Assembly: GCA_014874185.1 (NCBI GenBank)
Contig: JACWAF010000019.1
Coordinates: 1 to 64,000, forward strand
Source of the DNA: Nitrospirota bacterium
GTDB taxonomy: Bacteria; Nitrospirota; Thermodesulfovibrionia; Thermodesulfovibrionales; JdFR-88
Reading direction: 5' to 3'
DNA length: 64,000 bases
Position 1 is the stretch's first letter; every line of letters starts with the position of its first letter. Both the position numbers and the translations under genes were made by a program. Below, in pieces: positions 33,301 through 64,000 of this stretch. The notes below the pieces were generated by a model that searched no databases, was not told the DNA's origin, and saw only the letters and a program-made list of their open reading frames with translations.

Positions 33301-33460
33301 ACAGAAGACCAAGGGCAAGGGCCTGGGCCTCGCACTGGTCAAGGAGATAGTAAAACTGCACCGGGGCGCTATCGGGATAGACTCTCATGAGGGGAAAGGC
33401 ACTACCATAAAAATAGAGATTCCGGAGAAAGGGACCGATGAGCAAGATCCTTCTGATTGA
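30395..33460 (+). CDS. Multi-sensor histidine kinase (PAS-PAS-GAF-GAF-PAS-HisKA-HATPase)
   Basis: A 1021-residue sensor kinase. One membrane helix (2-20) is followed directly by a HAMP-like stretch, PAS1 (about 75-185), PAS2 (205-312), GAF1 (335-490), GAF2 (515-660), PAS3 (675-790), HisKA with phospho-acceptor His801 (SASHEFRTP) and the ATPase domain (NLMQNSLTYSD, DTGWGIP, GKGLGLAL). PAS2 has three Cys (239, 250, 258) in a spacing that could bind a metal or act as redox switch. The start overlaps hisS by ATGA; an open frame 69 codons upstream is a shadow of hisS. The 3' end overlaps the response regulator by 23 bases, so they are probably a pair. The signal is unknown. Confidence 0.93.
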   Translation: MIALGLVVSLLASIACLFAFRRLSRSVQEIRNGIERLKRGDFGPQAIGAQSGPLADEFRQLTESLRERFTALDWKARYLESMPDPVLVLDYDNLIMDFNPAFTALLGYSKEDMVGYSIFDLMDEENGKVMSRNLLANGHGKLTSHEVSLIARGGKAVPVLISCAPVTDREGEVVAKVGVLKEFSKEVSLRKSLRELGENRRVIMDSMPDILLVLNREYEIVLANRTACETGGELAGKRCYEVFHDRESVCPGTDGQDCPVQEVFRQGKPSGAVHLYHEQGRRKYVQISAYPIKDEDGLVRNAVCIMRDITAGKTYEDEIARRNKELATLLSISRKVNNSLKGEDIFNSALESLIELTGMQGGAIFPLDELGRELACNYHRGLSDDYIKGMAKFRVGEDIPGRVAQNGEIFTSADLTEDSRARRSLFIHTGIRGCASFPIKGKEKTIGVFCLFSFGRHEFTPDEERIFMSVGEITGIAFDNIKLYEKMKLLYQQHKWRKTEEQKKLLELASVLSTKLDVREMLDTAILTVKQFFRADFACFLEMDNGGNLVVRSAPGSGLPEGALIYEKGDNSIEAAAIRTKRPVIVEDIQSQYGYAFARDIARGQYKVACAIPVYSGNRALSALSFYCSYFKRLRDEDIFFFQTMANILDVALERAQLYDKFIIGKGMSETILESIEDGIITVDTQGRVLAANRAAGALAGIDPVSALGRYFSELFGDSEEDLKFSYLLSKIMEEVLQGNHMEREAAITGRSGRKVPILLNGYPARDQKGSVAAVIFALRDISRHEEADSIKSEFLRSASHEFRTPLSAIVGMTEMILDREVSREKERVYLETIYTEGKRLSEIVSCLLDLDAIESGKEVLRLGETSLDSLISEVLAEFAPAAGRKGVDLSVSMEGDMRGFKADAEKLKQMLRNLMQNSLTYSDPGSRIEITGERVEGGLELVLRDTGWGIPEDDLKHLGQKFYRGRYAQKTKGKGLGLALVKEIVKLHRGAIGIDSHEGKGTTIKIEIPEKGTDEQDPSD

Positions 33461-33818
33461 CGACGAGCCTTTCATCTTGATGATGATTGAAGACAAGCTG
33501 AAGAGGGCCGGGCTTGCGGTAGTCACTCAACGGGAAAGCGTTACCGCAGTGGAGAGGGCCAGGAGGGAGCGGCCCGACCTGATCATCCTGGACTGGATGA
33601 TGCCGGAGGTAAGCGGGCTGGAGGTCTGCAAGGCCCTCAAATCCGACCCGGAACTCTCACATATCCCGATAATCATGCTTACCGCGAAGAGCCAGGAGGA
33701 CGAAGAGAAACTTGGGATCAGCTGCGGCGTGGAGCGTTACATGATCAAGCCTTTCAGCCCCAAGATACTGCTTGAATACGTCCTTGAAGTCCTGGAAAAA
33801 TACAAACGGAAACCCTGA
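33438..33818 (+). CDS. Single-domain response regulator
   Basis: A 126-residue receiver domain without an output domain. The acidic pair in IDDEPF, phospho-acceptor Asp52 (ILDWMMP), the Thr in MLTAKS and the Lys of MIKPFS are all present. It overlaps the kinase gene upstream and is followed by a terminator, so it closes the operon. With no output domain it must act by protein contact, for example in a phosphorelay. Confidence 0.93.
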   Translation: MSKILLIDDEPFILMMIEDKLKRAGLAVVTQRESVTAVERARRERPDLIILDWMMPEVSGLEVCKALKSDPELSHIPIIMLTAKSQEDEEKLGISCGVERYMIKPFSPKILLEYVLEVLEKYKRKP

Positions 33819-37548: not shown

Positions 37549-37947
37549 TCAGCCCCGGATGAATTTAAGGACGGTGCGCCTGTGCCTGGGGCCGTCGAAC
37601 TCGCAGAAGTAGATGGACTGCCAGGTCCCCAGGGTGAGCTTTCCGCCATCGATGGGCACGTAAGCGCTGGCCCCCACGATGCTGGATTTTATATGCGCGT
37701 CGGAGTTGCCTTCGCGGTGGAAGTATCCCATATCGTGAGGGACAAGCCTGGTGAGACTATTCTGGATATCACGCTGCACTGCGGGGTCGGCCCCCTCGTT
37801 TATGGTCACCCCGGCCGTTGTATGCGGCACGTAAACGTAACAGACCCCGTCCTCTATTCCGGCTTCCCTGAGGGCGTTTTCCACGTCGGAGGTGATGTCT
37901 ATGAACTCTATCCGCTGCTTGCTACGGATGTTCAGATACTTGATCAT
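37549..37947 (-). CDS. YjbQ / UPF0047 family protein
   Basis: A 132-residue single-domain protein with the family block YVPHTTAGVTINEGADPAVQRD and GTWQSIYFCEFDGPRHRR. Members were named secondary thiamine-phosphate synthases from genetic evidence; the physiological role is unsettled. It overlaps lpxK by 26 bases and ends next to the FAD enzyme start. Confidence 0.92.
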   Translation of the reverse strand: MIKYLNIRSKQRIEFIDITSDVENALREAGIEDGVCYVYVPHTTAGVTINEGADPAVQRDIQNSLTRLVPHDMGYFHREGNSDAHIKSSIVGASAYVPIDGGKLTLGTWQSIYFCEFDGPRHRRTVLKFIRG

Positions 37948-38917
37948 GGACCCTCCCGAAAAAGTCGCGCCAGAACGCGTCCTGAAGCGCCAAACCCACC
38001 CTCAGTGCATGGAGAACAAGCCCCGCCGGGACCTCTCCGAGCCTCATTATATCCTTTTCCGTAGTGAGAATCCATGCATTTTTGGCCCTTGCGCTGATGC
38101 GTTTCAGTTCGCCGCCCGTAAACCTGTGATGGTCCTGAAAGGCCGTGAATTCCTTTATGACAGCGCCTGTTTCAAGGAGGGTTTTTTCAAGCGAGGAGGG
38201 CTCGCCTATGCCGCAGAAAGCGGCCACCTCCCGGCCCTTCAGTTCCTCTACCGGGCAGGTCTTGCGCGATGGGAATTCGATGACCGATTCGGGCTCGTAC
38301 CAGGCGGGGTAGATGGGCGCGCCGGCGTTCCATTTCCTTATCTCTTTTGCAATTTCATCCGGCACCGCCTTGCATTTTGTGACCAGGATTAAATCCGCCC
38401 TCTTCACCTCTTTTACGGGCTCCCTCAGATCTCCTATCGGCAGGAGTTTCCCTCCCCCAAACGGGTCGTCCGCGCTTATGAGGAGCATATCCAAATCCCG
38501 GTGGAGCCCCCAGTGCTGGAAGCCGTCATCCATAATAAAGATATCGGGGGCGGGGCTCAGGTTCTTTAATGCGAAGAGCCCCCCGGCATGCCTGTCCGCG
38601 CATTTTATCACCGGCACCGAGGGGAGCCTTCCGGCAAGGAGCAGGGGTTCGTCCCCGGCGTCTTCCGGACGCATCCCAGGCCTCACGACAACGGGGCCGG
38701 CAAGACTGCCCCCATAGCCCCTGGTGAGGATGGCCGGCCTGGACCCCTTCGCCTCCAGTGCGGACGCGATGGCGATCGCAAGCGGGGTCTTTCCCGTCCC
38801 CCCGGTAGTCAGGTTCCCTATGCTTATGACCGGCGCGGGAAGCTTTTTCCGCCCTTTCAGGCCGAAGTATCTGTCAGTTTTATAGGCAAGCCAGTAAAGG
38901 ACGCCGAAGAGCCCCAT
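37922..38917 (-). CDS. lpxK: Tetraacyldisaccharide 4'-kinase LpxK
   Basis: LpxK adds the 4'-phosphate to the lipid A disaccharide at the inner membrane. The 331-residue protein has an N-terminal membrane-associated segment, the P-loop NLTTGGTGKTPLA (about residues 33-45), LTRGYGG, and IMDDGFQHWGLHRDLD. It lies directly after waaA (one-base overlap) and before yjbQ, in the lipid A operon. Confidence 0.95.
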   Translation of the reverse strand: MGLFGVLYWLAYKTDRYFGLKGRKKLPAPVISIGNLTTGGTGKTPLAIAIASALEAKGSRPAILTRGYGGSLAGPVVVRPGMRPEDAGDEPLLLAGRLPSVPVIKCADRHAGGLFALKNLSPAPDIFIMDDGFQHWGLHRDLDMLLISADDPFGGGKLLPIGDLREPVKEVKRADLILVTKCKAVPDEIAKEIRKWNAGAPIYPAWYEPESVIEFPSRKTCPVEELKGREVAAFCGIGEPSSLEKTLLETGAVIKEFTAFQDHHRFTGGELKRISARAKNAWILTTEKDIMRLGEVPAGLVLHALRVGLALQDAFWRDFFGRVHDQVSEHP

Positions 38918-40182
38918 CAGGACGCCTCTTTGCGAAATAGAGACGGGTATGCGGCCTCTATCTCCCGGAGGGTTTTCTCCACCGCCCCGGAATGCTCCTC
39001 GTAATACCGCCTCCCCTTTGCACCCATCCCGGCACGCTTGTTATCATCTTTTAATAAAGTATCCAGGAGGCCATAAAGTCCGTGTTTGTCAACACTCACA
39101 GCGGCCTGCCTTTCAAGCAGGTCTTTCATGAACGGGAAATTCTCCATATGGGGGCCGGTCACGACCGACTTCCCCCAGTATAAGGCCTCCAGCGGGTTCT
39201 GCCCCCCGTGAGGGATGAAGCTGCCGCCTATTACCACTATATCAGCCGCCGAATATATCTGAAATAGCTGGCCCACCGTGTCCACGACCACGCATCCGGG
39301 CAGCAGCGAACTGTTTTTGATTTCGGAAGAAAACACGCATTGAAGCCCCTCGATGCGGAGGGCCTCAGCCGCCTCTTGCTTTCGTTCCGGATGCCTTGGG
39401 GCAAGCACAAGAAAGAGAGATGGGAATCCCGCTTTAAGCCTCTTAACAGTCTGCGCTATTGTCTCCTCCTCGCCCAAATGCGTGCTCCCCGCCACAATGA
39501 CGGGACGGGAGAGTTTTTGAAGCCAGAAAGGGGGCCCGCCCTTGGGTTTCACCTCAAACTTGAAATTGCCGGAGACACGGACTGAGTCCCTCTTTGCGCC
39601 AAGCTCCAATGCCCTTTCCGCGTAAACCGCATCCTGCATGAAGAGAATGTCTATCTTCCGCAGCACGGGGCCGATGAAGAACTTTGCCTTCCGGTAATTT
39701 TGAAAGGACTTTTCGGAGAGCCTGCCGTTTACGATGAATACAGGTATACCCGCCTTGTGCATCTGATTGACCGCATTGGGCCATAGCTCTGTCTCAATCA
39801 TAATGAAGGCGGCTGGCCGCGCCCGCCTTATCGCCCTTTTGAGGCAGAAAGGGATATCGAAAGGCATATGGAAAACCGGGGCCCACGGAAGTTTTTCCCG
39901 TGCCATTTTCCGCCCGGTGCCGGTTATGGTGGACACGACCACGTCCGCCCCCTTTTCGCGCAATGCCTCTATGAAGGGGACCGCCGCGGCCACCTCGCCC
40001 ACGCTCACCGCGTGCACCCAGATTGCGCCGTGAACCCAGGCCGCTCCTTCTCCGGCGGCGGGCAGAAAACCAAGTTTCTCCCTGACCCATCCGGGCCGCT
40101 CCGGCTCCGGTCTTTTCCGAAGCTCGAAAGGAAAAACAATCAACAGGGCCAGGCAGTAAAGGAAGGTGTAGATGAGAAACAA
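38917..40182 (-). CDS. waaA: Kdo transferase WaaA (KdtA)
   Basis: A 421-residue GT30 glycosyltransferase that adds Kdo from CMP-Kdo to lipid A precursor. It starts with a membrane anchor (about 2-18) and shows IWVHAVSVGEVAAA, VSTITGTGRKMA, ETELWPN and GGSFIPHGGQNPLEA, all typical. Start is TTG. It sits between lpxB (three bases upstream) and lpxK (one-base overlap). How many Kdo units it adds cannot be told. Confidence 0.95.
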   Translation of the reverse strand: MFLIYTFLYCLALLIVFPFELRKRPEPERPGWVREKLGFLPAAGEGAAWVHGAIWVHAVSVGEVAAAVPFIEALREKGADVVVSTITGTGRKMAREKLPWAPVFHMPFDIPFCLKRAIRRARPAAFIMIETELWPNAVNQMHKAGIPVFIVNGRLSEKSFQNYRKAKFFIGPVLRKIDILFMQDAVYAERALELGAKRDSVRVSGNFKFEVKPKGGPPFWLQKLSRPVIVAGSTHLGEEETIAQTVKRLKAGFPSLFLVLAPRHPERKQEAAEALRIEGLQCVFSSEIKNSSLLPGCVVVDTVGQLFQIYSAADIVVIGGSFIPHGGQNPLEALYWGKSVVTGPHMENFPFMKDLLERQAAVSVDKHGLYGLLDTLLKDDNKRAGMGAKGRRYYEEHSGAVEKTLREIEAAYPSLFRKEAS

Positions 40183-40185
40183 CGC

Positions 40186-41325
40186 TTATCTCCAGCCGGC
40201 CAGTTCCGCGGCCATATCCGCCACCCTGCGGGAGGCGCCGGGCCCGCCGAAACGGCCTTTCAGTTCCCTGAAATCCGAGAGCATCCGCCCCCTCTCAGAC
40301 TGATTTTTCAATATTTTCCCCAATTCCCGGACGATGTTTTCAGGGGTTGCCTTTTCCTGCAATAGTTCCCTTGCCGACTCCCGCCCAAGGATTATATTCA
40401 AAAGGGTAACATATTTCACCCTCAGGATGAGCCTGCCCGCCAGATAAGTAAGCCGGGATAATTTGTAGATGACCACGAACGGGGTCTCAAGGAAGGCGGC
40501 CTGCAGGGTTGCCGTCCCCGAAGCTATAACGGCCCCCTCGCTTGCGGCAAGCATCTTTAACGCGCTCTCTTTCCGTATCAGCACGCCGCGGTCTTTCAAT
40601 TCTTCGAAATCATTTTTAAATGGGTCCGTATCCAGGTTCGGGGCAAGGGGAAGGATATATCCATACTCCGGGAACTCTCTTTTCAGCAGCTTGAGAGTTT
40701 CTATTAAAATGGGGAGATGGCGTTTAAGCTCGGAAGGGCGGCTTCCCGGTAAAATGGCGATATACGGCCCGTCCTCCAACGATAATTCCCTCTTAAGAGA
40801 GGCCTTGTCCTTGACGGCCATTGATTCTATCTCGTCCAGCACCGGGTGGCCCACGAACTCGCATGAGATGCCGGCTTTTCTGTAAAGGGGCTCCTCGAAA
40901 GGCAGGATCACCGCCATCCTGTCCACGAAGCGGGCCATCTGGCGCACCCGTCCCGCGCGCCACGCCCATATCTGCGGGCTTACGTAGTAGAGGATCTTTA
41001 TCCCGCGCCTTTTAAGCGCCTTGCCAAGCTTGAAGTTGAAGTCCGGGAAATCAATAAGCACGGCCAGCTTCGGGCGGCGCTGGTCGGCAATCTCCAGGAT
41101 TTTCTTAAAGGTAACTCGCAATTCTTTTAAATGGGAGAGGGCCTCGGAGAGCCCGAACGCGCCGGAAACCGTCCTCGTAACATCCACCCCTTCGGCCCTC
41201 ATGCGCTCCCCGCCCACGCCGAAAATTTTTATGTCCGGGTATCTCGCCCTTATCTCTTTTGCCAGGAGTGCGCCATAGAGTTCGCCTGAGGATTCGCCGC
41301 TGACTATGAGGAGGCTTTCAGGCAC
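40186..41325 (-). CDS. lpxB: Lipid-A-disaccharide synthase LpxB
   Basis: A GT19 glycosyltransferase of 379 residues that joins lipid X and UDP-diacylglucosamine. The start LLIVSGESSGELYGALLAKE, IDFPDFNFKLGK, YYVSPQIWAWRAGR and ILPGSRPSEL are all diagnostic. Start GTG overlaps the aminotransferase gene by eight bases. Coupling with that gene suggests its acceptor or donor carries an amino group at C-3. Confidence 0.95.
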   Translation of the reverse strand: MPESLLIVSGESSGELYGALLAKEIRARYPDIKIFGVGGERMRAEGVDVTRTVSGAFGLSEALSHLKELRVTFKKILEIADQRRPKLAVLIDFPDFNFKLGKALKRRGIKILYYVSPQIWAWRAGRVRQMARFVDRMAVILPFEEPLYRKAGISCEFVGHPVLDEIESMAVKDKASLKRELSLEDGPYIAILPGSRPSELKRHLPILIETLKLLKREFPEYGYILPLAPNLDTDPFKNDFEELKDRGVLIRKESALKMLAASEGAVIASGTATLQAAFLETPFVVIYKLSRLTYLAGRLILRVKYVTLLNIILGRESARELLQEKATPENIVRELGKILKNQSERGRMLSDFRELKGRFGGPGASRRVADMAAELAGWR

Positions 41326-49537: not shown

Positions 49538-50314
49538 TTATTTGAAGGGGATTTTTTCCGCGCCGGAGGGCTTGCGGAGACTAAGCTGAAGCTCCAGGAG
49601 GCAGGCCTCTTTTACCGCAATGTATAGAAACCTCTGAAAACAGGCGTAAAACCCCGCCGCGCCGTCCAGAAAACCAAATTTGAAGGTGTAGCGCCGCAAG
49701 AATTTCCAGAACGCAGAAATCAATTCGAACCCGGAAAACCGTTCACCTCTTGTAAAATCCCCTTCCGCCTCCGAGCGGGCCAGCCTCATGCTGCGGAACC
49801 ACCATTCGAGAAAGTCCTGGGCCATGTAATGTCGAAGAATGCCGTCAAGCTTTCCCGCCGTGCCGGCTACTTTAAAGCGCGGGTGCAGAGTGGGCGGGGA
49901 CTCCACGGAACCCCGCCTGAAGAGCCTCAAGACCTGCTCCTGCCAGCCGCCATGCCGCAGCCACCTGCCAAGCGCGAAGTTCTGGCGGGTAAGGTAATAG
50001 CCAGAATGCCTGCCGCCAATTTGGAGGACATTTGTTATGTTCCCTTTTAGTTCTGGCGTGACTTCCTCATCCGCGTCCACGACCATCACCCAATCGCAAG
50101 TGGCTTGGGCAATCCCGAAGGCGTATTGCGCGCCCGCGCCCTGCCACTGGTGAACGATGACCCGCGCCCCCTCGGCCTCCGCAATCTCACGGGTATGGTC
50201 AGTGCTTTCGGAGTCGATGACGATGATCTCATCGGCCCACCTAAGGCTTTGGAGGCAGCGGGCGATGTTCTTCTCCTCATTCCTGGTAAGCACTATGGCG
50301 GAGATGGTTTCCAT
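49538..50314 (-). CDS. Family 2 glycosyltransferase, WaaE-like
   Basis: A 258-residue GT-A glycosyltransferase, probably for the LPS core. It starts ISAIVLTRNEEKNIARCL, with WADEIIVIDSESTDHT and the metal-binding DADEEVT. This pattern is close to WaaE/KdtX beta-1,4-glucosyltransferases that act on the first heptose, but the donor and acceptor are not certain. It is the downstream end of the LPS cluster; a palindromic repeat separates it from the next gene. Confidence 0.85.
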   Translation of the reverse strand: METISAIVLTRNEEKNIARCLQSLRWADEIIVIDSESTDHTREIAEAEGARVIVHQWQGAGAQYAFGIAQATCDWVMVVDADEEVTPELKGNITNVLQIGGRHSGYYLTRQNFALGRWLRHGGWQEQVLRLFRRGSVESPPTLHPRFKVAGTAGKLDGILRHYMAQDFLEWWFRSMRLARSEAEGDFTRGERFSGFELISAFWKFLRRYTFKFGFLDGAAGFYACFQRFLYIAVKEACLLELQLSLRKPSGAEKIPFK

Positions 50315-50362
50315 GCGGGCTATTATAAAGGAGATGCCCTATTTGATGTTTAAACCATTTTG

Positions 50363-50438
50363 AAAAATCCCTCCAACCTCCCTTTTCCAAAGGGAGGGAT
50401 TTGCCCCTCTTTGGAAAAGAGGGGCAAGGGGAGATTTT
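50363..50438. repeat. CCTCCC/GGGAGG intergenic repeat, copy 1
   Basis: An imperfect palindromic unit of 76 bases: AAAAATCCCTCC at the left, a CTCCCTTTTCCAAAGGGAG hairpin, a second hairpin CCCCTCTTTGGAAAAGAGGGG and AAGGGGAGATTTT at the right. It stands between two glycosyltransferase genes; copies 2 and 3 lie at 51598 and 52765. Confidence 0.75.
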
Positions 50439-50479
50439 CTGTTATAAAATATCCGATTTAATCTTGCTAAATGACCGGT

Positions 50480-51562
50480 TCAAGCGAGGATATCTTGATA
50501 AACCCGGAGGTTGCCCTGCACCATCCTTAAGATAGAGAACTCCTCTTCGGCAATCCGTCTTCCGGCCTCCCCCATCTGCCTGGCCAGGATGGAATTTTTG
50601 AACAGGTTTAAAATGGCTTCAGCGATGGCCTGAGTATTGCCGGGCGGCAGCAGCATACCGTTTACGCCGTGGCGGACGGCCTCCGGTATGCCGCCCACCG
50701 AAGAGGCTATGATGGGCACGCCGCACGAGGCCGCCTGCAGGAGCGAGACCCCAAGCCCCTCCATAAGGGCCGGGTGCACAAGGATGTCCAGGCAGGGCAG
50801 CAGCAGATGCAGGTCTTCCCTGAACCCGGCGAATATCACGTTGCCTGAAACCCCGGATCTCGAGCAGAGCCCCTTCAGTTCGGCCTCCATCGGGCCCTTT
50901 CCAAAGAAGATTATCTTGGTGTCCGGCATCGTCCGGAGCACATCCGGAAGCGCCTCGATCAGGTATTTATGGCCCTTCCTGGCTATCAGCTGGGCCGATA
51001 CCCCGATCACCTTCGAGTCCGCCCGAAGCCCCAATTCCTTTAAAAAATATTCCCGTTCGCATTCGGGATTGAAAAGGCCGGTATCCACGGCCGAATGTAC
51101 GCAGACCACCTTGCGCTCCGGGATGCCCGCCTTCAAAAGCACGTCCCGGATGCCGTTGGATATGGTTATCACCCTGTCGCATATCCCGTACTTGAGGCGG
51201 GCGATAAGGGCCGGCTCCGGGTTGTCCACCCGGCGGGAGATGACCACCTTCGTGCCCGAGAGCCTCGCTGAGACAAGCCCCCAGATGTCCGCCCCCCGCC
51301 TGCTGTGAAGATGCACGATGTCTGGTTTTTCCAGTCTGATTATGTCTTTCAGTTTCAAAGTGAAGGAGACATCCAGTTCCCCGCGCATGGGGACGGCGTA
51401 GACCCGGTCGGCTATCTCTTTAGTGCAGCCGGCTATTTCAGAATTATCAGGGCAGGCGAGGACGCTTGTAACGCCCTTTTCGCGCAGGCCCCGGAGCAGA
51501 TAGACCACCTGCAGCGCCCCGCCGTAAAGGTTCCTGCCCGTCTCAACGTGGAGGATCTTCAT
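50480..51562 (-). CDS. Family 4 glycosyltransferase
   Basis: A GT-B glycosyltransferase of 360 residues. It begins MKILHVETGRNLYGGALQV, and the C-terminal nucleotide-sugar domain has ISAQL-like SAQLIARKGHKYLIEAL and the acidic HPALMEGLGVSLLQAASCG. It probably adds a sugar to LPS core or O-antigen. The frame also opens at TTG two codons upstream; the ATG is preferred. Repeats flank it on both sides. Confidence 0.88.
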   Translation of the reverse strand: MKILHVETGRNLYGGALQVVYLLRGLREKGVTSVLACPDNSEIAGCTKEIADRVYAVPMRGELDVSFTLKLKDIIRLEKPDIVHLHSRRGADIWGLVSARLSGTKVVISRRVDNPEPALIARLKYGICDRVITISNGIRDVLLKAGIPERKVVCVHSAVDTGLFNPECEREYFLKELGLRADSKVIGVSAQLIARKGHKYLIEALPDVLRTMPDTKIIFFGKGPMEAELKGLCSRSGVSGNVIFAGFREDLHLLLPCLDILVHPALMEGLGVSLLQAASCGVPIIASSVGGIPEAVRHGVNGMLLPPGNTQAIAEAILNLFKNSILARQMGEAGRRIAEEEFSILRMVQGNLRVYQDILA

Positions 51563-51597
51563 TTTCAATACAGTCTCGCAGGATTTCTATTTTCAAG

Positions 51598-51675
51598 AAA
51601 ATCCCTCCTAACCCCTCTTTTCCAAAGGGAGGGATTTACCCCTCTTTGGAAAAGAGGGGTAAGGGGAGATTTTTC
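51598..51675. repeat. CCTCCC/GGGAGG intergenic repeat, copy 2
   Basis: Same layout as copy 1: AAAATCCCTCC, then two hairpins and AAGGGGAGATTTTT. It differs from copy 1 at scattered positions and fills almost the whole gap between two genes. Confidence 0.75.
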
Positions 51676-51685
51676 GGCAAAATTT

Positions 51686-52741
51686 CTATTCACTATTAAG
51701 ACCTTTGTCTCTCCGTAAAACCCCCGCCGCGGCCCGCACGACGTCTTCTTCCGTTATCGCCCTCATGCAGTGGAAATTCCCGCCGCAGACCACGTCCTTG
51801 CGGCAGGGGGAGCACTCCTGCTTTTTGAAGAGGACAACGGCATTTCCGCGCCCGGTAATCGTGTACGGGCAGGTGGAGCCGAATACGCAGACAGTTGGCA
51901 CGTTGTAGGCTATGCCCATGTGGGTAAGCCCGGTATCCACTCCGACCAGAAGGCGGGCTTTTTTGATTATAGCCATCGACTCTCTGAGCGTGGTCTTCCC
52001 GGCCATATTGACGACGGGGATTTTGGACGCGCCCTCGATGGCAGCTGCGGCTTCCACATCCCTTCCAGCCCCCAGGATTATGGGCAGAAGACCCGTGCGC
52101 CTGCTTATCTCTGATATGGCTCCCGGCCACCTATTGCTGATCCAGTGCTTCTGAGGGCGTGTGGTAAAAGGCCCAATCACAAAGTAATCGCCTTTGGCAG
52201 TCCCATTAAAAAAACTGTCCGCATAATCCCCGCCCTCTTTTGTGAAAGGCAGTTCGGGGAGGAACTCACCCTCGTCAAGTCCCAGGGCCTTTGTCACACT
52301 AATGTAATCCGCGCTTATCCTCGGCCCGTCCGTGATAGGGACGCACCTGGTCATCAGATGCCCGGCCCCTTCCCGGCACCCAAGCCCGATCCGTGTCTTC
52401 GCGCCGGAGAGGAAGGCCCAGATTGAGCTTTTCAAGAGGCATTGCAGGTCGAAGACGGTATCGAACCGCCTGCCCCTGAGCCCCCGCGCGAAATTCAGGG
52501 CCTCTCCGGAGAGATTTAAAAATCTCTTATCGCCAGCTTTTTTCTTCCAGAAGCTGGATGGCCAGACGATCACCTCGTCTATAAGCGGGTGGCCTGTCAA
52601 CACGTCCTTGAACCTGTCCTCCACCAGCCAGCTTATACTTGCCCATGGCCAGGCGGCCCTGAAGACGCGCAGCACGGGTGTTGCCATCACGATGTCGCCT
52701 ATGGCGCTTAGCTTTATTATCAGTATTTTCTCAGGCCGCAT
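51686..52741 (-). CDS. Family 9 glycosyltransferase (LPS heptosyltransferase)
   Basis: A 351-residue GT9 enzyme, the family that transfers ADP-heptose to the LPS inner core. It starts ILIIKLSAIGDIVMATPVLRV and has VGVDTGLTHMGIAYNVPTVCVFG. A C-terminal Cys-rich patch (KKQECSPCRKDVVCGGNFHCM) is common in these enzymes from anaerobes. With the second GT9 gene at 52856 it could supply heptose I or II; which one cannot be told. Confidence 0.88.
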   Translation of the reverse strand: MRPEKILIIKLSAIGDIVMATPVLRVFRAAWPWASISWLVEDRFKDVLTGHPLIDEVIVWPSSFWKKKAGDKRFLNLSGEALNFARGLRGRRFDTVFDLQCLLKSSIWAFLSGAKTRIGLGCREGAGHLMTRCVPITDGPRISADYISVTKALGLDEGEFLPELPFTKEGGDYADSFFNGTAKGDYFVIGPFTTRPQKHWISNRWPGAISEISRRTGLLPIILGAGRDVEAAAAIEGASKIPVVNMAGKTTLRESMAIIKKARLLVGVDTGLTHMGIAYNVPTVCVFGSTCPYTITGRGNAVVLFKKQECSPCRKDVVCGGNFHCMRAITEEDVVRAAAGVLRRDKGLNSE

Positions 52742-59896: not shown

Positions 59897-60250
59897 ATGA
59901 AGGAACAAATTCTCATATTCGACCGGGAGCCCCTCGTGCTTTCGGCGGCCCGGAGGGCCTTGACCGAAAAGTGCTACATAGTGGTCGCTGTAACAAGCAA
60001 GGAGGACTACTCCAGGGCGCTGGTTGAAAACCCATTTGACCTGGTGATACTGGATATCGAACTGCCCGGAATAGCCATCAGGAACCTCATAGAGGAGGCC
60101 AGGGCGTCCAACCCGAAGACCCGGTTTCTGTACCTCAGCAGTTCCAGGTCGATGCAGGCCCAGTCCGATTTCTTCCTTAAAAAACCTTTTCTTCTGGATG
60201 ACCTTAACACCCTTGTCCGGAAAGTGCTGGATAGACCCGATATTGAATGA
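59897..60250 (+). CDS. Single-domain receiver protein, slightly degenerate
   Basis: A 117-residue receiver-like domain. It has the phospho-acceptor candidate in VILDIELPG and the Lys in FLKKPFLLDD, but the acidic pair near the N terminus is FDRE instead of DD, leaving a single Asp, and the Thr/Ser site is LYLSSS. Phosphorylation may still work. The stop overlaps the PAP2-GT fusion start by ATGA, so it is tied to envelope sugar modification. No kinase gene is adjacent. Confidence 0.87.
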   Translation: MKEQILIFDREPLVLSAARRALTEKCYIVVAVTSKEDYSRALVENPFDLVILDIELPGIAIRNLIEEARASNPKTRFLYLSSSRSMQAQSDFFLKKPFLLDDLNTLVRKVLDRPDIE

Positions 60251-62247
60251 ATCACGCCGGGCTTGACACTTCTTTATTCTTCCTGATTAACAAGACCCTC
60301 GCCTATCCTTTTCTGGACCGGTTCATGGTCTTCATAACCAACAAGAACCGCTGGATATTTCTGGCATTGGGGCTCTTCATCGCCTTCCGCGAAAAGAAGA
60401 AGGAACGGGGGCTTTATATCGCGCTTGCCGCGCTGGCCTCGGTGGGGCTGGCGGACTGGATTTCATCGAGTCTGAAGGACGTTATCGGCAGGATAAGGCC
60501 CTGCAACGCACTGGAGGGCGTGCGTCTTCTGGTGGGCTGTTCGGGCTCATATTCGATGCCGTCAGGCCATGCCACAAATTCCTTCGCGGTCGCGATGCCC
60601 TTTCTCCTTCTAACGAAAAACCGCCTCAAATGGCTCATGCTCTTCCTGGCCGCGCTGGTGGCGTATTCAAGACCCTATGTCGGGGTGCATTATCCGGGGG
60701 ACGTGCTGGCCGGGGCCCTTCTGGGCAGCCTGATAGCCATCTCCATAGTTGGTTTCTTCAGACTGGCTGATAAAAAGGGCGGCACGGAAGGCCCGCTCAT
60801 GATCTTCCTTGCCGCAATGACCCTGTTCCGTTTTTATTACATCATGAGGGGCGGGCTCGATCTGAGCGGGGACGAGGCGCATTACTGGGAATGGACCCGC
60901 AGACTGGATATCGGGTATTACTCGAAAGGCCCGATAATTGCCTATCTCATCAAAGCGGGCACACTGCTCTTCGGCAATACGGAGTTCGGAGTGAGGTTCT
61001 TCGCGCCGGTGCTCCTGCTGCTGGGGAGCATCTTGCTTTACAGGCTTGGGACGGCCCTTTACGACAAGGAGACCGGTTTCTGGGCGGCCATCCTGTACCA
61101 GATAATACCGCTCTTTTCCGCCTTCGGGGTCCTCATGACCATAGATGCCCCGTTTCTCTTCTTCTGGGTCCTGGCGCTCCTCCTGTTTTTCAGGGCCGTC
61201 ACGCTAAAAAGCCTTCCCGAATGGCTTTTGCTTGGCATAGTGGTGGGCCTTGGGCTCCTGACCAAGTTCACCATGGCATTCTTTTTTGTTTCCGCTCTTT
61301 TTTATCTCCTTGTTTCTCGCGAGGACAGGGCGGAGCTTTTAAGCCCGAGGCCTTACCTTGCCCTTATACTGAGCCTTCTGGTGCTCGCGCCGCTCCTTTT
61401 GTGGGACATGCAACACGGCTGGATAAACCTGAAACATAACCTGAGCCATGCCGATCTGCAAGACGGGCTTCGGTTCTCGGCGGCCAGCCTCCTTCAATTC
61501 ATCGGTTCCCAGGCAGGCGTGGTCACTCCGCTCCTTTTTTTCATGCTTATATACGCCTCGGCCAGGCAGCGGAAAAGCGATCCGTTCGCCTTCTGGTTTT
61601 TCGCGCCCACATTCGTCTTCTTCCTGTTAAAGAGCGTGCAGGGCAAGGTGCAGGCAAACTGGGCGATGGCAGGCTATGTCTCAGGGCTCTTCGCCTTCCA
61701 CAACTATTTCTTGAGGGACTTGAAATATTCCGGCGCGGGCAGGAAGGCCCTGGCGGGCGCGGCCATCGTCCTTTCGATAGCGGTAACGGTCGTATCGTTC
61801 TACCCGAACCTCATCGGGCTTCCAACCAGGCTGGACCCCACGGCAAGGCTGCACGGCTGGAAATCCCTCGCGCGGGAACTGGACAGGTCCGAGATACCGG
61901 AGCTTCAAAAAGGAGGCAAGCCCTTCTTCATCTTCTCGGATGGTTATCAGCTCTCCTCGGAGCTTGCCTTTTATCTGAAAGGACAGCCCGTCACCTACTG
62001 CGCCAATATTGACAGGCGCATGAACCAGTACGACCTCTGGCCCGGCTTCGAGGGGCTTATCCGCGAGAACGCCCTTTTTGTTACAATAGGGGATTCCGAT
62101 CTGCCCGAAAAACTGAAGGCGGCCTTCGGCGGGTATGAGAAAAAAAGCTTTACAGCTACGGAAAAGGGCAAGGTGCTGAGGCAATATTCCATATTCATCT
62201 GCCGGGACTTCAAGGGGCTCAAGAAAGAGGAGTTCACAAGCTTTTGA
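60247..62247 (+). CDS. PAP2 phosphatase - GT39 (ArnT-like) glycosyltransferase fusion
   Basis: A 666-residue membrane protein combining two enzymes. Residues 1-175 are a PAP2 phosphatase with all three motifs: KDVIGRIRP, PSGHATNSF and SRPYVGVHYPGDV. From about 180 follows a GT-C glycosyltransferase of the PMT/ArnT type with the catalytic SGDEAHYWEW loop and many helices. The second half would take a sugar from a polyprenyl-phosphate carrier, and the first could remove phosphate from the spent carrier or from lipid A. Start ATGA-coupled to the receiver gene; the stop overlaps the ArnC-like gene. Confidence 0.9.
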   Translation: MNHAGLDTSLFFLINKTLAYPFLDRFMVFITNKNRWIFLALGLFIAFREKKKERGLYIALAALASVGLADWISSSLKDVIGRIRPCNALEGVRLLVGCSGSYSMPSGHATNSFAVAMPFLLLTKNRLKWLMLFLAALVAYSRPYVGVHYPGDVLAGALLGSLIAISIVGFFRLADKKGGTEGPLMIFLAAMTLFRFYYIMRGGLDLSGDEAHYWEWTRRLDIGYYSKGPIIAYLIKAGTLLFGNTEFGVRFFAPVLLLLGSILLYRLGTALYDKETGFWAAILYQIIPLFSAFGVLMTIDAPFLFFWVLALLLFFRAVTLKSLPEWLLLGIVVGLGLLTKFTMAFFFVSALFYLLVSREDRAELLSPRPYLALILSLLVLAPLLLWDMQHGWINLKHNLSHADLQDGLRFSAASLLQFIGSQAGVVTPLLFFMLIYASARQRKSDPFAFWFFAPTFVFFLLKSVQGKVQANWAMAGYVSGLFAFHNYFLRDLKYSGAGRKALAGAAIVLSIAVTVVSFYPNLIGLPTRLDPTARLHGWKSLARELDRSEIPELQKGGKPFFIFSDGYQLSSELAFYLKGQPVTYCANIDRRMNQYDLWPGFEGLIRENALFVTIGDSDLPEKLKAAFGGYEKKSFTATEKGKVLRQYSIFICRDFKGLKKEEFTSF

Positions 62248-63209
62248 CCGCTCACAGGGACTTTTCAGTAGTAATTCCCCTCTATAACGAGGAAGAGAAC
62301 GTCAGGCCGCTTTACGAGGCCCTGAAACCCGTCCTCGACAAAACGGGAAAGGAATACGAAATCCTCTTTGTGGACGACGGAAGCTCCGACCGCACCCTCC
62401 CCCAACTGGAAGATATCTCTAAAATTGACAAAAAGGTAAAAGTCCTCTCATTCAGGCGTAACTTCGGCCAGACCGCGGCCTTCGCCGCGGGCTTCGACTA
62501 CGCCCAGGGGGACGTGATAATCACCATGGACGGCGACCTGCAAAACGACCCCGCCGACATCCCCCGGATGCTGGATGCCATTCAGGGCTATGACCTTGTA
62601 AGCGGCTGGCGGAAAAACCGCAAAGACCCTTTCCTGAGCCGCAAATTCCCTTCCAGAGTGGCCAATTGGCTGATAGGGCGGGTGACAGGGGTCAGGCTTC
62701 ACGATTACGGCTGTTCCCTTAAGGCCTATAAAAAAGACGTGGTCAAAAACCTGCGCCTTTACGGCGAGATGCACCGCTTCATCCCCGCAGTGGCCAACTG
62801 GTACGGCGTGCGCGTGGCCGAGTTGGAGACCACCCACCACCCGCGTTTAAGGGGCAAATCCAAATACGGGATCTCAAGGACGGTAAAGGTCTTTCTGGAC
62901 CTTATCACGGTAAAATTCCTGCAGAGCTTCTCCACCAAGCCAATTCAGTTCTTTGGCCCCATCGGGCTATTGAGCACAACGGCCGGCTTTTTCATATCGT
63001 TCTATCTCGCCGTGCAAAAGATATTCTTTGGCACTCCCATCGGCGGCAGGCCGCTTCTTCTGCTGGGGGTGCTGCTGATAATAGTAGGCATTCAGCTTAT
63101 CGGGATGGGGCTCCTTGGCGAGATGCTCGTCAGGGTCTACCACGAGAGCCAGCGAAAACCCATCTACGCCCTCAAGAAAGTAATTGGCGCAGACAGCGAA
63201 CAAGCCTAA
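62244..63209 (+). CDS. Polyprenyl-phosphate glycosyltransferase (ArnC/DPM1-like)
   Basis: A family 2 glycosyltransferase of 321 residues that loads a sugar onto a polyprenyl phosphate. It has VVIPLYNEEENV, VDDGSSDRT, the metal site MDGDLQND and two C-terminal membrane helices (about 235-295). Order with the GT39 gene matches the ArnC-ArnT idea: this enzyme makes the lipid-linked donor that the fusion protein uses. Start TTG overlaps the previous stop (TTGA). The sugar is unknown. Confidence 0.92.
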   Translation: MTAHRDFSVVIPLYNEEENVRPLYEALKPVLDKTGKEYEILFVDDGSSDRTLPQLEDISKIDKKVKVLSFRRNFGQTAAFAAGFDYAQGDVIITMDGDLQNDPADIPRMLDAIQGYDLVSGWRKNRKDPFLSRKFPSRVANWLIGRVTGVRLHDYGCSLKAYKKDVVKNLRLYGEMHRFIPAVANWYGVRVAELETTHHPRLRGKSKYGISRTVKVFLDLITVKFLQSFSTKPIQFFGPIGLLSTTAGFFISFYLAVQKIFFGTPIGGRPLLLLGVLLIIVGIQLIGMGLLGEMLVRVYHESQRKPIYALKKVIGADSEQA

Positions 63210-64000
63210 GCGCATCCTTCTGCTGGCATTAAAATTCCTGGTAAGCGGCACTCTCCTGTTCTTCGTCCTCAGGAAGGCCGGCTTCAAAGAGGTCTATTCG
63301 CTTATAAGCCGGATAAACCCGCTTGCGTTCCTGGCCGCAGTGCTCTTCTATGCCCTGGGGCAGCTTGTCTCCAGCGCCAGATGGAGGCTTCTGCTCACAT
63401 CAAGAGTTCCCATGAAGAGGCTCTTCTCCCTCTATATGGTGGGAAGCTTCTTCAGCATGATCCTGCCCGGCCTCGTCGGGGGCGACGCGGTAAAAGGGTT
63501 CTATCTTTACAAGGACACCGGCAAGGCGCCGGAGACCATGGCCTCGATCTTCATGGAGAGATACCTGGGCTTCACGGCCCTCTTGATACTTGGCGCGCTG
63601 GCCTACCCCTTCAGCCTGCCTTATATAAAAGGCTCGCCCCTGGCATGGTATTTTCCTCTTATCGTGGCCGCTTTCCTGGTGTTCAGCCTGGCCTTCTTCA
63701 ATCTGAAAATCGGCCGCAGGATAAAGATGCTCTCCGAGGTCTACGGCTACTTCGGCCTGTACCGGAAACCCGTGCTGGCAAGAGGCGTCCTCCTCTCGTT
63801 CGGCGTGCAGGGGCTTGCCATAATTTCCGTAATTACCATCTCAAAAGGACTGGGGCTGTCCATCCCGGTCCCCCTCTTCTTCGCCTTCGTCCCGATGATC
63901 GTAGCCTTCTCCTCACTGCCGGTATCCGTCTCGGGGATCGGCCTCAGGGAGGCGTCATTCGTGCTCCTCTTCGGCGGGGCTGGCTTGAACGCCGAATCGG
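63184..64000 (+). CDS. LPG-synthase transmembrane / flippase-like (UPF0104) protein, partial
   Basis: An integral membrane protein cut by the window end; 272 codons are seen. The frame starts at TTG 63184, overlapping the upstream gene by 26 bases, and reads through to the last base without a stop. It shows the family features: a basic start, helices every 20-30 residues, SSARWRLLLTSR, SMILPGLVGGDAVKGFYLYK and SGIGLREASFVLLFG. The family includes MprF-like lipid flippases and uncharacterised YbhN proteins. As the fourth gene of the module it may move the polyprenyl-linked sugar across the membrane; this is inference. Confidence 0.85.
   Translation, partial: MAQTANKPKRILLLALKFLVSGTLLFFVLRKAGFKEVYSLISRINPLAFLAAVLFYALGQLVSSARWRLLLTSRVPMKRLFSLYMVGSFFSMILPGLVGGDAVKGFYLYKDTGKAPETMASIFMERYLGFTALLILGALAYPFSLPYIKGSPLAWYFPLIVAAFLVFSLAFFNLKIGRRIKMLSEVYGYFGLYRKPVLARGVLLSFGVQGLAIISVITISKGLGLSIPVPLFFAFVPMIVAFSSLPVSVSGIGLREASFVLLFGGAGLNAES

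Follow-up and report, generated by a model that had tools for sequence, protein, structure and literature searches.

A conserved fusion of a PAP2 phosphatase and an ArnT-type glycosyltransferase in a four-gene operon of Nitrospirota headed by a lone receiver

INTRODUCTION

In three-component Gtr-type systems (GtrA/GtrB/Gtr*, including the GT136 pentofuranose systems), a polyprenyl-phosphate sugar synthase, a flippase and a GT-C transferase are encoded in one operon (PMC11127046). A GtrA-family flippase is the criterion of the Gtr subtype, not of the whole three-component class. In rhizobia, Oligotropha and Aquifex, the PAP2 phosphatase LpxE, the GT2 loader RgtE and the PMT_2 transferase RgtF act on one lipid and replace a lipid A phosphate by galacturonic acid; in Oligotropha the three genes have consecutive locus tags (PMC7663294). 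The Arn operon combines the loader ArnC and the transferase ArnT with ArnE/F. In Pseudomonas, ArnT is physically tied to the PAP2 protein LpxT in a non-covalent complex (PMC13142001), and in Myxococcus the undecaprenyl-linked phosphoglycosyl transferase EpsZ is activated by EpsW, a lone receiver without output domain (PMC12802240).

Here we describe a four-gene operon of a Nitrospirota bacterium, located at the end of a 64,000-nucleotide stretch of contig JACWAF010000019.1 (the window). A preliminary description of this DNA knew of no described system with such a layout. This holds only in part, because the triad of GT2, GT-C transferase and flippase is known, whereas the PAP2/GT-C fusion and the attached receiver are new; neither is described in the literature searched, in which no published PAP2-ArnT fusion was found. 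Compared with the Gtr-type and GT136 systems (PMC11127046), the putative flippase is of the MprF/COG0392 kind rather than GtrA or MATE, PAP2 is fused to GT-C, and the first gene encodes a lone receiver. LpxE, RgtE and RgtF are separate enzymes, whereas phosphatase and transferase here form one protein with a presumed sugar and acceptor; their replacement of a lipid A phosphate by a sugar is the closest functional precedent. The operon shares an ArnC-like loader and an ArnT-fold transferase with the Arn operon, but contains no ArnD or ArnE/F, its proteins score far under the ArnC and ArnT equivalog cut-offs, and the genome has no full ArnA. In contrast to the LpxT-ArnT complex, the two activities share one polypeptide. 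As with EpsW, an output-less receiver is tied to undecaprenyl-phosphate enzymes, but these belong to another family, no kinase is nearby, and the receiver in the window has lost an Mg ligand.

RESULTS

Gene organization

The preliminary description had claimed four translationally overlapping genes, and all four ORFs were found on the plus strand (Table 1). The receiver stop and fusion start overlap as ATGA, the GT2 gene starts with TTG and overlaps the fusion stop as TTGA, and the GT2 and flippase-like genes overlap by 26 bases. The flippase-like gene is cut by the window end (64000), and its remaining 92 bases were read from the assembly. Due to a divergent sodium:solute symporter gene upstream of the receiver gene and a convergent cysM-like gene downstream of the flippase-like gene, the operon consists of exactly four genes. 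The domain identities proposed earlier (receiver, PAP2 plus GT39, ArnC-like loader, flippase-like protein) were matched above Pfam cut-offs.

Table 1. Genes and fusion halves of the operon (window positions)
Feature	Position	Strand	Properties
Lone receiver gene	59897-60250	+	117 aa; Pfam Response_reg 41.5 bits
PAP2/ArnT-type GT-C fusion gene	60247-62247	+	666 aa; Pfam PAP2 81.2 and PMT_2 126.6 bits, one frame
PAP2 phosphatase half of fusion	60259-60759	+	residues about 5-171
ArnT-type GT-C half of fusion	60787-62244	+	residues about 181-666; C-terminal soluble domain
GT2 polyprenyl-phosphate glycosyltransferase gene, ArnC/GtrB type	62244-63209	+	321 aa; C-terminal membrane helices; Glycos_transf_2 116 bits
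Flippase-like membrane protein gene (COG0392/PF03706)	63184-64092	+	302 aa; LPG_synthase_TM 131.5 bits

Conservation of the fusion and of its linkage

Homologous loci were taken as the best 80 matches of one genome-collection scan, almost all of them from Nitrospirota; these relatives place the genome of the window with the Thermodesulfovibrionales of that phylum. The PAP2/GT39 fusion claimed for the window lies in a single reading frame, and PAP2 and GT-C are found in one protein at 72 of these 80 loci, a conservation well beyond chance. The MAG assemblies that hold these loci are independent of one another, which excludes a local sequencing error, and an assembly or frameshift artefact was ruled out as the origin of the fusion. 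The fusion is old and real. At L056 one stop codon separates the two halves. Orthologues of the fusion are 42-57% identical. In a sample of 296 genomes taken across the phylum Nitrospirota, 240 match the fusion profile (E 1e-20), many of these matches spanning one half only. When a plasmid collection was searched with the whole fusion, no record covered 80% of it and none carried a PAP2-GT39 fusion. The taxonomic range given here is that of the scan's best 80 matches and of the plasmid records, and restriction to Nitrospirota is not implied.

Among the best 80 loci, GT2 is the next gene after the fusion at 73 of 78 assessable loci, the flippase-like gene then follows at 69 of 74, and a receiver precedes 31 of about 75 (about 40%), denominators that leave out loci at contig ends. 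The loci without an adjacent GT2 or flippase-like gene form one clade (f6), in whose genomes these two genes adjoin each other but are unlinked to the fusion. Hence, the linkage of GT2 and the flippase-like gene to the fusion extends to nearly all loci, and fails in this clade.

Other Nitrospirota encode the parts as separate neighbouring genes: PAP2-GT39-GT2-flippase in a row (L119), a separate PAP2 gene followed by GT39 (L116), receiver-PAP2-GT2-flippase in a row with GT39 on another contig (L123), and PAP2 beside GT2 without GT39 (L126). This argues that the link between PAP2, GT39, GT2 and flippase is functional, and the PAP2 and GT-C halves belong together functionally. PAP2 is not obligatory, because it was lost in several lineages where GT39-GT2-flippase remained. 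Family f3 is mostly without this GT2 but kept the fusion, or a lone GT39, together with the flippase-like gene, and in the three members of family f8 tested (G018, G030, G039) the fusion and GT2 are absent and only the flippase-like gene is kept, which makes the latter the most widely kept of the set. The genome of the window has a second pair of this kind elsewhere (L035 5071-7387; G000:C23 about 50070-52386), in which the genes for an ArnT-like protein of 565 aa and a PAP2 protein of 217 aa overlap but remain separate.

In a tree of 98 transferase domains, made by a quick method and with a midpoint root only, the fused or single state changes 8 times and receiver presence changes 10 times. 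Unfused sequences occupy the rows most distant from the group of the window. Within the limits of such a tree and root, this points to a derived fused state with several later losses.

Partial likenesses occur outside the phylum. Flippase-like, GT2 and GT39 genes lie side by side on Sinorhizobium meliloti pSymB; its GT2 is 48% identical, but its GT39 and flippase are distantly or not detectably alike, and it has neither PAP2 fusion nor lone receiver. Azospirillum plasmids carry a flippase-like and GT2 pair. An archaeal example of the triad, drawn from the GT2, GT39 and flippase-like families, is also on record (PMC5898192). An R. tumorigenes plasmid (L141 1955-6845) shows similar parts brought together in parallel, with PAP2, a lone receiver, GtrA-GT39 and GT2-GtrA beside a two-component system; its GT39, similar in length to the fusion, has GtrA and not PAP2 as N-terminus.

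The PAP2 and GT-C halves

The AF2 model of the fusion is confident (mean pLDDT 89.9, pTM 0.87). Judged by secondary structure and by positively charged residues, the linker (about residues 178-181) is probably cytoplasmic, and both predicted active sites would thus face the periplasm. The best Foldseek match of the GT-C half is ArnT (5f15/5ezm), and the fold also matches OST, PglB and PMT enzymes. In this half D209 and E210 (after TM1) and K227 are invariant in 81 of 81 sequences; it scores 48.4 bits against the ArnT equivalog and does not reach the cut-off of 567.

The PAP2 catalytic motifs KX6RP, PSxH and SRX5HX3D are present (K77, R84-P85, P105-S106-x-H108, S141-R142, H148, D152), and in the fusion alignment K77, R84, P85, H108, R142, H148 and D152 are invariant or nearly so, with the Ser near-invariant. 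The nearest solved structure by Foldseek is Aquifex LpxE 6ebu (TM-score 0.79 over the target, 31% identity), and among curated models the undecaprenyl-diphosphatases SepP and YbjG score best. The half obtains 24.2 bits against the LpxE model (cut-off 177), a model by which Aquifex LpxE is also unmatched, and no LpxT family match was found at E 0.001. Moreover, Aquifex LpxE, which cleaves lipid A, C55-PP and PGP alike (PMC6581854), gives the same family-score profile as this PAP2 half. Hence, sequence cannot name the PAP2 substrate, and the curated models did not separate LpxE from C55-PP phosphatases.

A dedicated BacA is encoded in 58 of 61 genomes, this one included; the three relatives without it (G003, G014, G046) all keep the fused PAP2, a coincidence that is not significant with 3 of 61 genomes, and BacA absence was set aside as support for a role of PAP2 in carrier supply. 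Within family f1, BacA has two distinct forms, in G001 and G004-G011 versus G000 and G002 (about 175 versus 265 bits).

The GT2 loader and the flippase-like protein

The GT2 aligns end to end with ArnC 9hwj (219 bits) and GtrB 5eke (171 bits) of the PDB, and scores 239.8 bits against the ArnC equivalog, under its cut-off of 529. Its orthologues are 68-78% identical to the window's GT2, versus the lower identities of the fusion given above. This difference points to a single donor sugar that is conserved and to a partner that varies more. For the supply of L-Ara4N, no full ArnA was found in the genome, only separate formyltransferase-like and dehydrogenase-like proteins (32%), and an Ara4N pathway was ruled out by this absence. 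The flippase-like protein scores 49.9 bits with TIGR00374 (above the cut-off of 43.2) and is matched by PF03706 only, not by the GtrA family (PF04138); its AF2 model resembles the MprF flippase domain (TM-score 0.66-0.70).

The lone receiver

The 117-aa receiver consists of Response_reg only, with no output domain. The phospho-acceptor D53, S81 and K96 are kept in all 33 operon-linked receivers, and position 10 is acidic (D) in 32 of them; only the window's receiver has R10, so that D9-R10 replaces the D-D acidic pair and the full phosphorylation site is not present. In CheY-type receivers, this acidic residue binds Mg directly. Since R10 replaces this Mg-binding Asp, phosphorylation of the window's receiver is doubtful. 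The phospho-control suggested earlier is thus plausible for the family but doubtful for this member. No kinase was found near the operon. Receivers occur with varying subsets of partners: PAP2 in the absence of GT39 (L123), GT39 in the absence of PAP2 (L069 and others), or the fusion in the absence of GT2 (L088, L115), which argues that the receiver follows the module rather than one partner. Control by protein contact has a precedent in EpsW-EpsZ. Another lone receiver is encoded at window 33438-33818 (126 aa, Response_reg 89 bits) and has the usual DDE acidic motif.

Lipopolysaccharide genes around the operon

The window holds LPS genes at distances of 4-22 kb from the operon. At 37922-41325 LpxK is accompanied by KdtA-like and LpxB-like genes; heptosyltransferase-like genes at 51.7-53.9 kb, a ligase-like gene and others were recognized by ORF and Pfam. 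As LpxK is present, the lipid A 4'-phosphate, the phosphate that would be removed, is made. LpxK is encoded in 60 of 61 genomes, and LPS presence did not discriminate between genomes with and without the module; family f8 makes LPS mostly without it. The neighbours of the operon differ between families (HemD fusion, universal stress protein, rhodanese, acyltransferase, DsbD and others), and naming the acceptor from them gave no answer. One full-text literature search found nothing published on the LPS chemistry of this bacterial order.

DISCUSSION

Our best reading is that the module is a variant of three-component periplasmic glycosylation, with loader, flippase and GT-C transferase, in which a phosphatase is built into the transferase. 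The preliminary description had seen loading, flipping, transfer and carrier dephosphorylation all represented. Family, fold and conserved linkage speak for loading, predicted flipping and transfer, but the fourth step does not stand. The product of a GT2 loader is a polyprenyl-monophosphate sugar, and ArnT-type transfer releases polyprenyl-phosphate, not diphosphate (as for ArnC/ArnT and GtrB). Hence, the C55-P-sugar cycle yields C55-P without any diphosphate and includes no dephosphorylation of the carrier; the genome also encodes BacA. This leaves two targets for the PAP2 half, the acceptor and undecaprenyl-diphosphate that arises in other pathways.

In the mechanism that we propose, GT2 would put a sugar from a nucleotide donor onto undecaprenyl-phosphate at the cytoplasmic side, and the MprF-like protein would flip the lipid-sugar outward. 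The ArnT-type half would then attach the sugar to an acceptor in the envelope, for which lipid A or the LPS core is the likeliest candidate, with release of undecaprenyl-phosphate, and the PAP2 half, on the same periplasmic face, would take a phosphate off the acceptor, the sugar replacing this phosphate or joining beside it. In relatives with an intact phosphorylation site, the receiver may set the activity of the module through protein contact. While the first three activities have the support described above, we infer the acceptor, the sugar, the substrate of PAP2 and the steps of PAP2 and the receiver. We tentatively favour the reading of the operon as a periplasmic glycosylation module whose PAP2 half dephosphorylates the acceptor of the ArnT-type transfer, which has a fair chance of being wrong; action on the acceptor is preferred because LpxE, RgtE and RgtF, the closest precedent, swap a lipid A phosphate for galacturonic acid. 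The loss of PAP2 from several lineages, LPS made mostly without the module in family f8 and the variable neighbours of the operon speak against it. A more specific form, in which a single polypeptide would couple removal of a lipid A phosphate to placement of the flipped sugar at that position and the receiver would turn this exchange on or off by contact and not by transcription, seems unlikely to hold in full.

If the PAP2 half were instead a C55-PP phosphatase making C55-P and feeding its own loader, the acceptor might be any envelope glycan. Its top scores with SepP and YbjG, the position of PAP2 beside GT2 without GT39 in L123 and L126, its retention in the relatives without BacA (not significant) and its dispensability, as expected if BacA can substitute, are consistent with this. 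However, BacA is present in nearly all genomes, including this one, Aquifex LpxE scores alike so that the scores do not favour C55-PP, and there is no obvious reason for fusing a general recycler to this transferase; we regard carrier supply as a serious but less probable explanation. The module might also glycosylate proteins or extracellular polysaccharide like PMT-type GT-C enzymes, with PAP2 as a housekeeping lipid phosphatase, and both the matches of the GT-C fold to OST, PglB and PMT and the assignment of the archaeal triad of the same three families to protein glycosylation (PMC5898192) would fit. Against it, the top fold match is ArnT, not PMT or OST, and the operon sits in an LPS-gene-rich stretch of this genome, which leaves this possibility decidedly unlikely. 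In Pseudomonas, the PAP2 protein LpxT is a binding partner of ArnT and also its competitor for the same lipid A phosphates (PMC13142001), and an LpxT-like PAP2 half could likewise handle phosphate where the ArnT-type half modifies lipid A, one protein balancing phosphate and sugar. Such site competition is improbable, since the half resembles LpxE and C55-PP phosphatases more closely in both sequence and fold, and LpxT family models gave no match at E 0.001.

Envelope glycosylation with lipid-linked sugars is widespread, which raises the question of how it is coordinated with the removal of phosphate and with the use of a shared C55-P pool. The conserved LpxE-like/ArnT-like fusion shows which two activities go together, and as a natural fusion it suggests that phosphatase and sugar transferase reactions work together. 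It offers a single purifiable protein for testing the coupling recently reported for LpxT and ArnT, and the operon provides a genetic entry point to the post-translational control exerted by lone receivers other than EpsW. If dephosphorylation of the acceptor by the PAP2 half is the true reading, an unusual lipid A or core would be predicted across a whole bacterial order.
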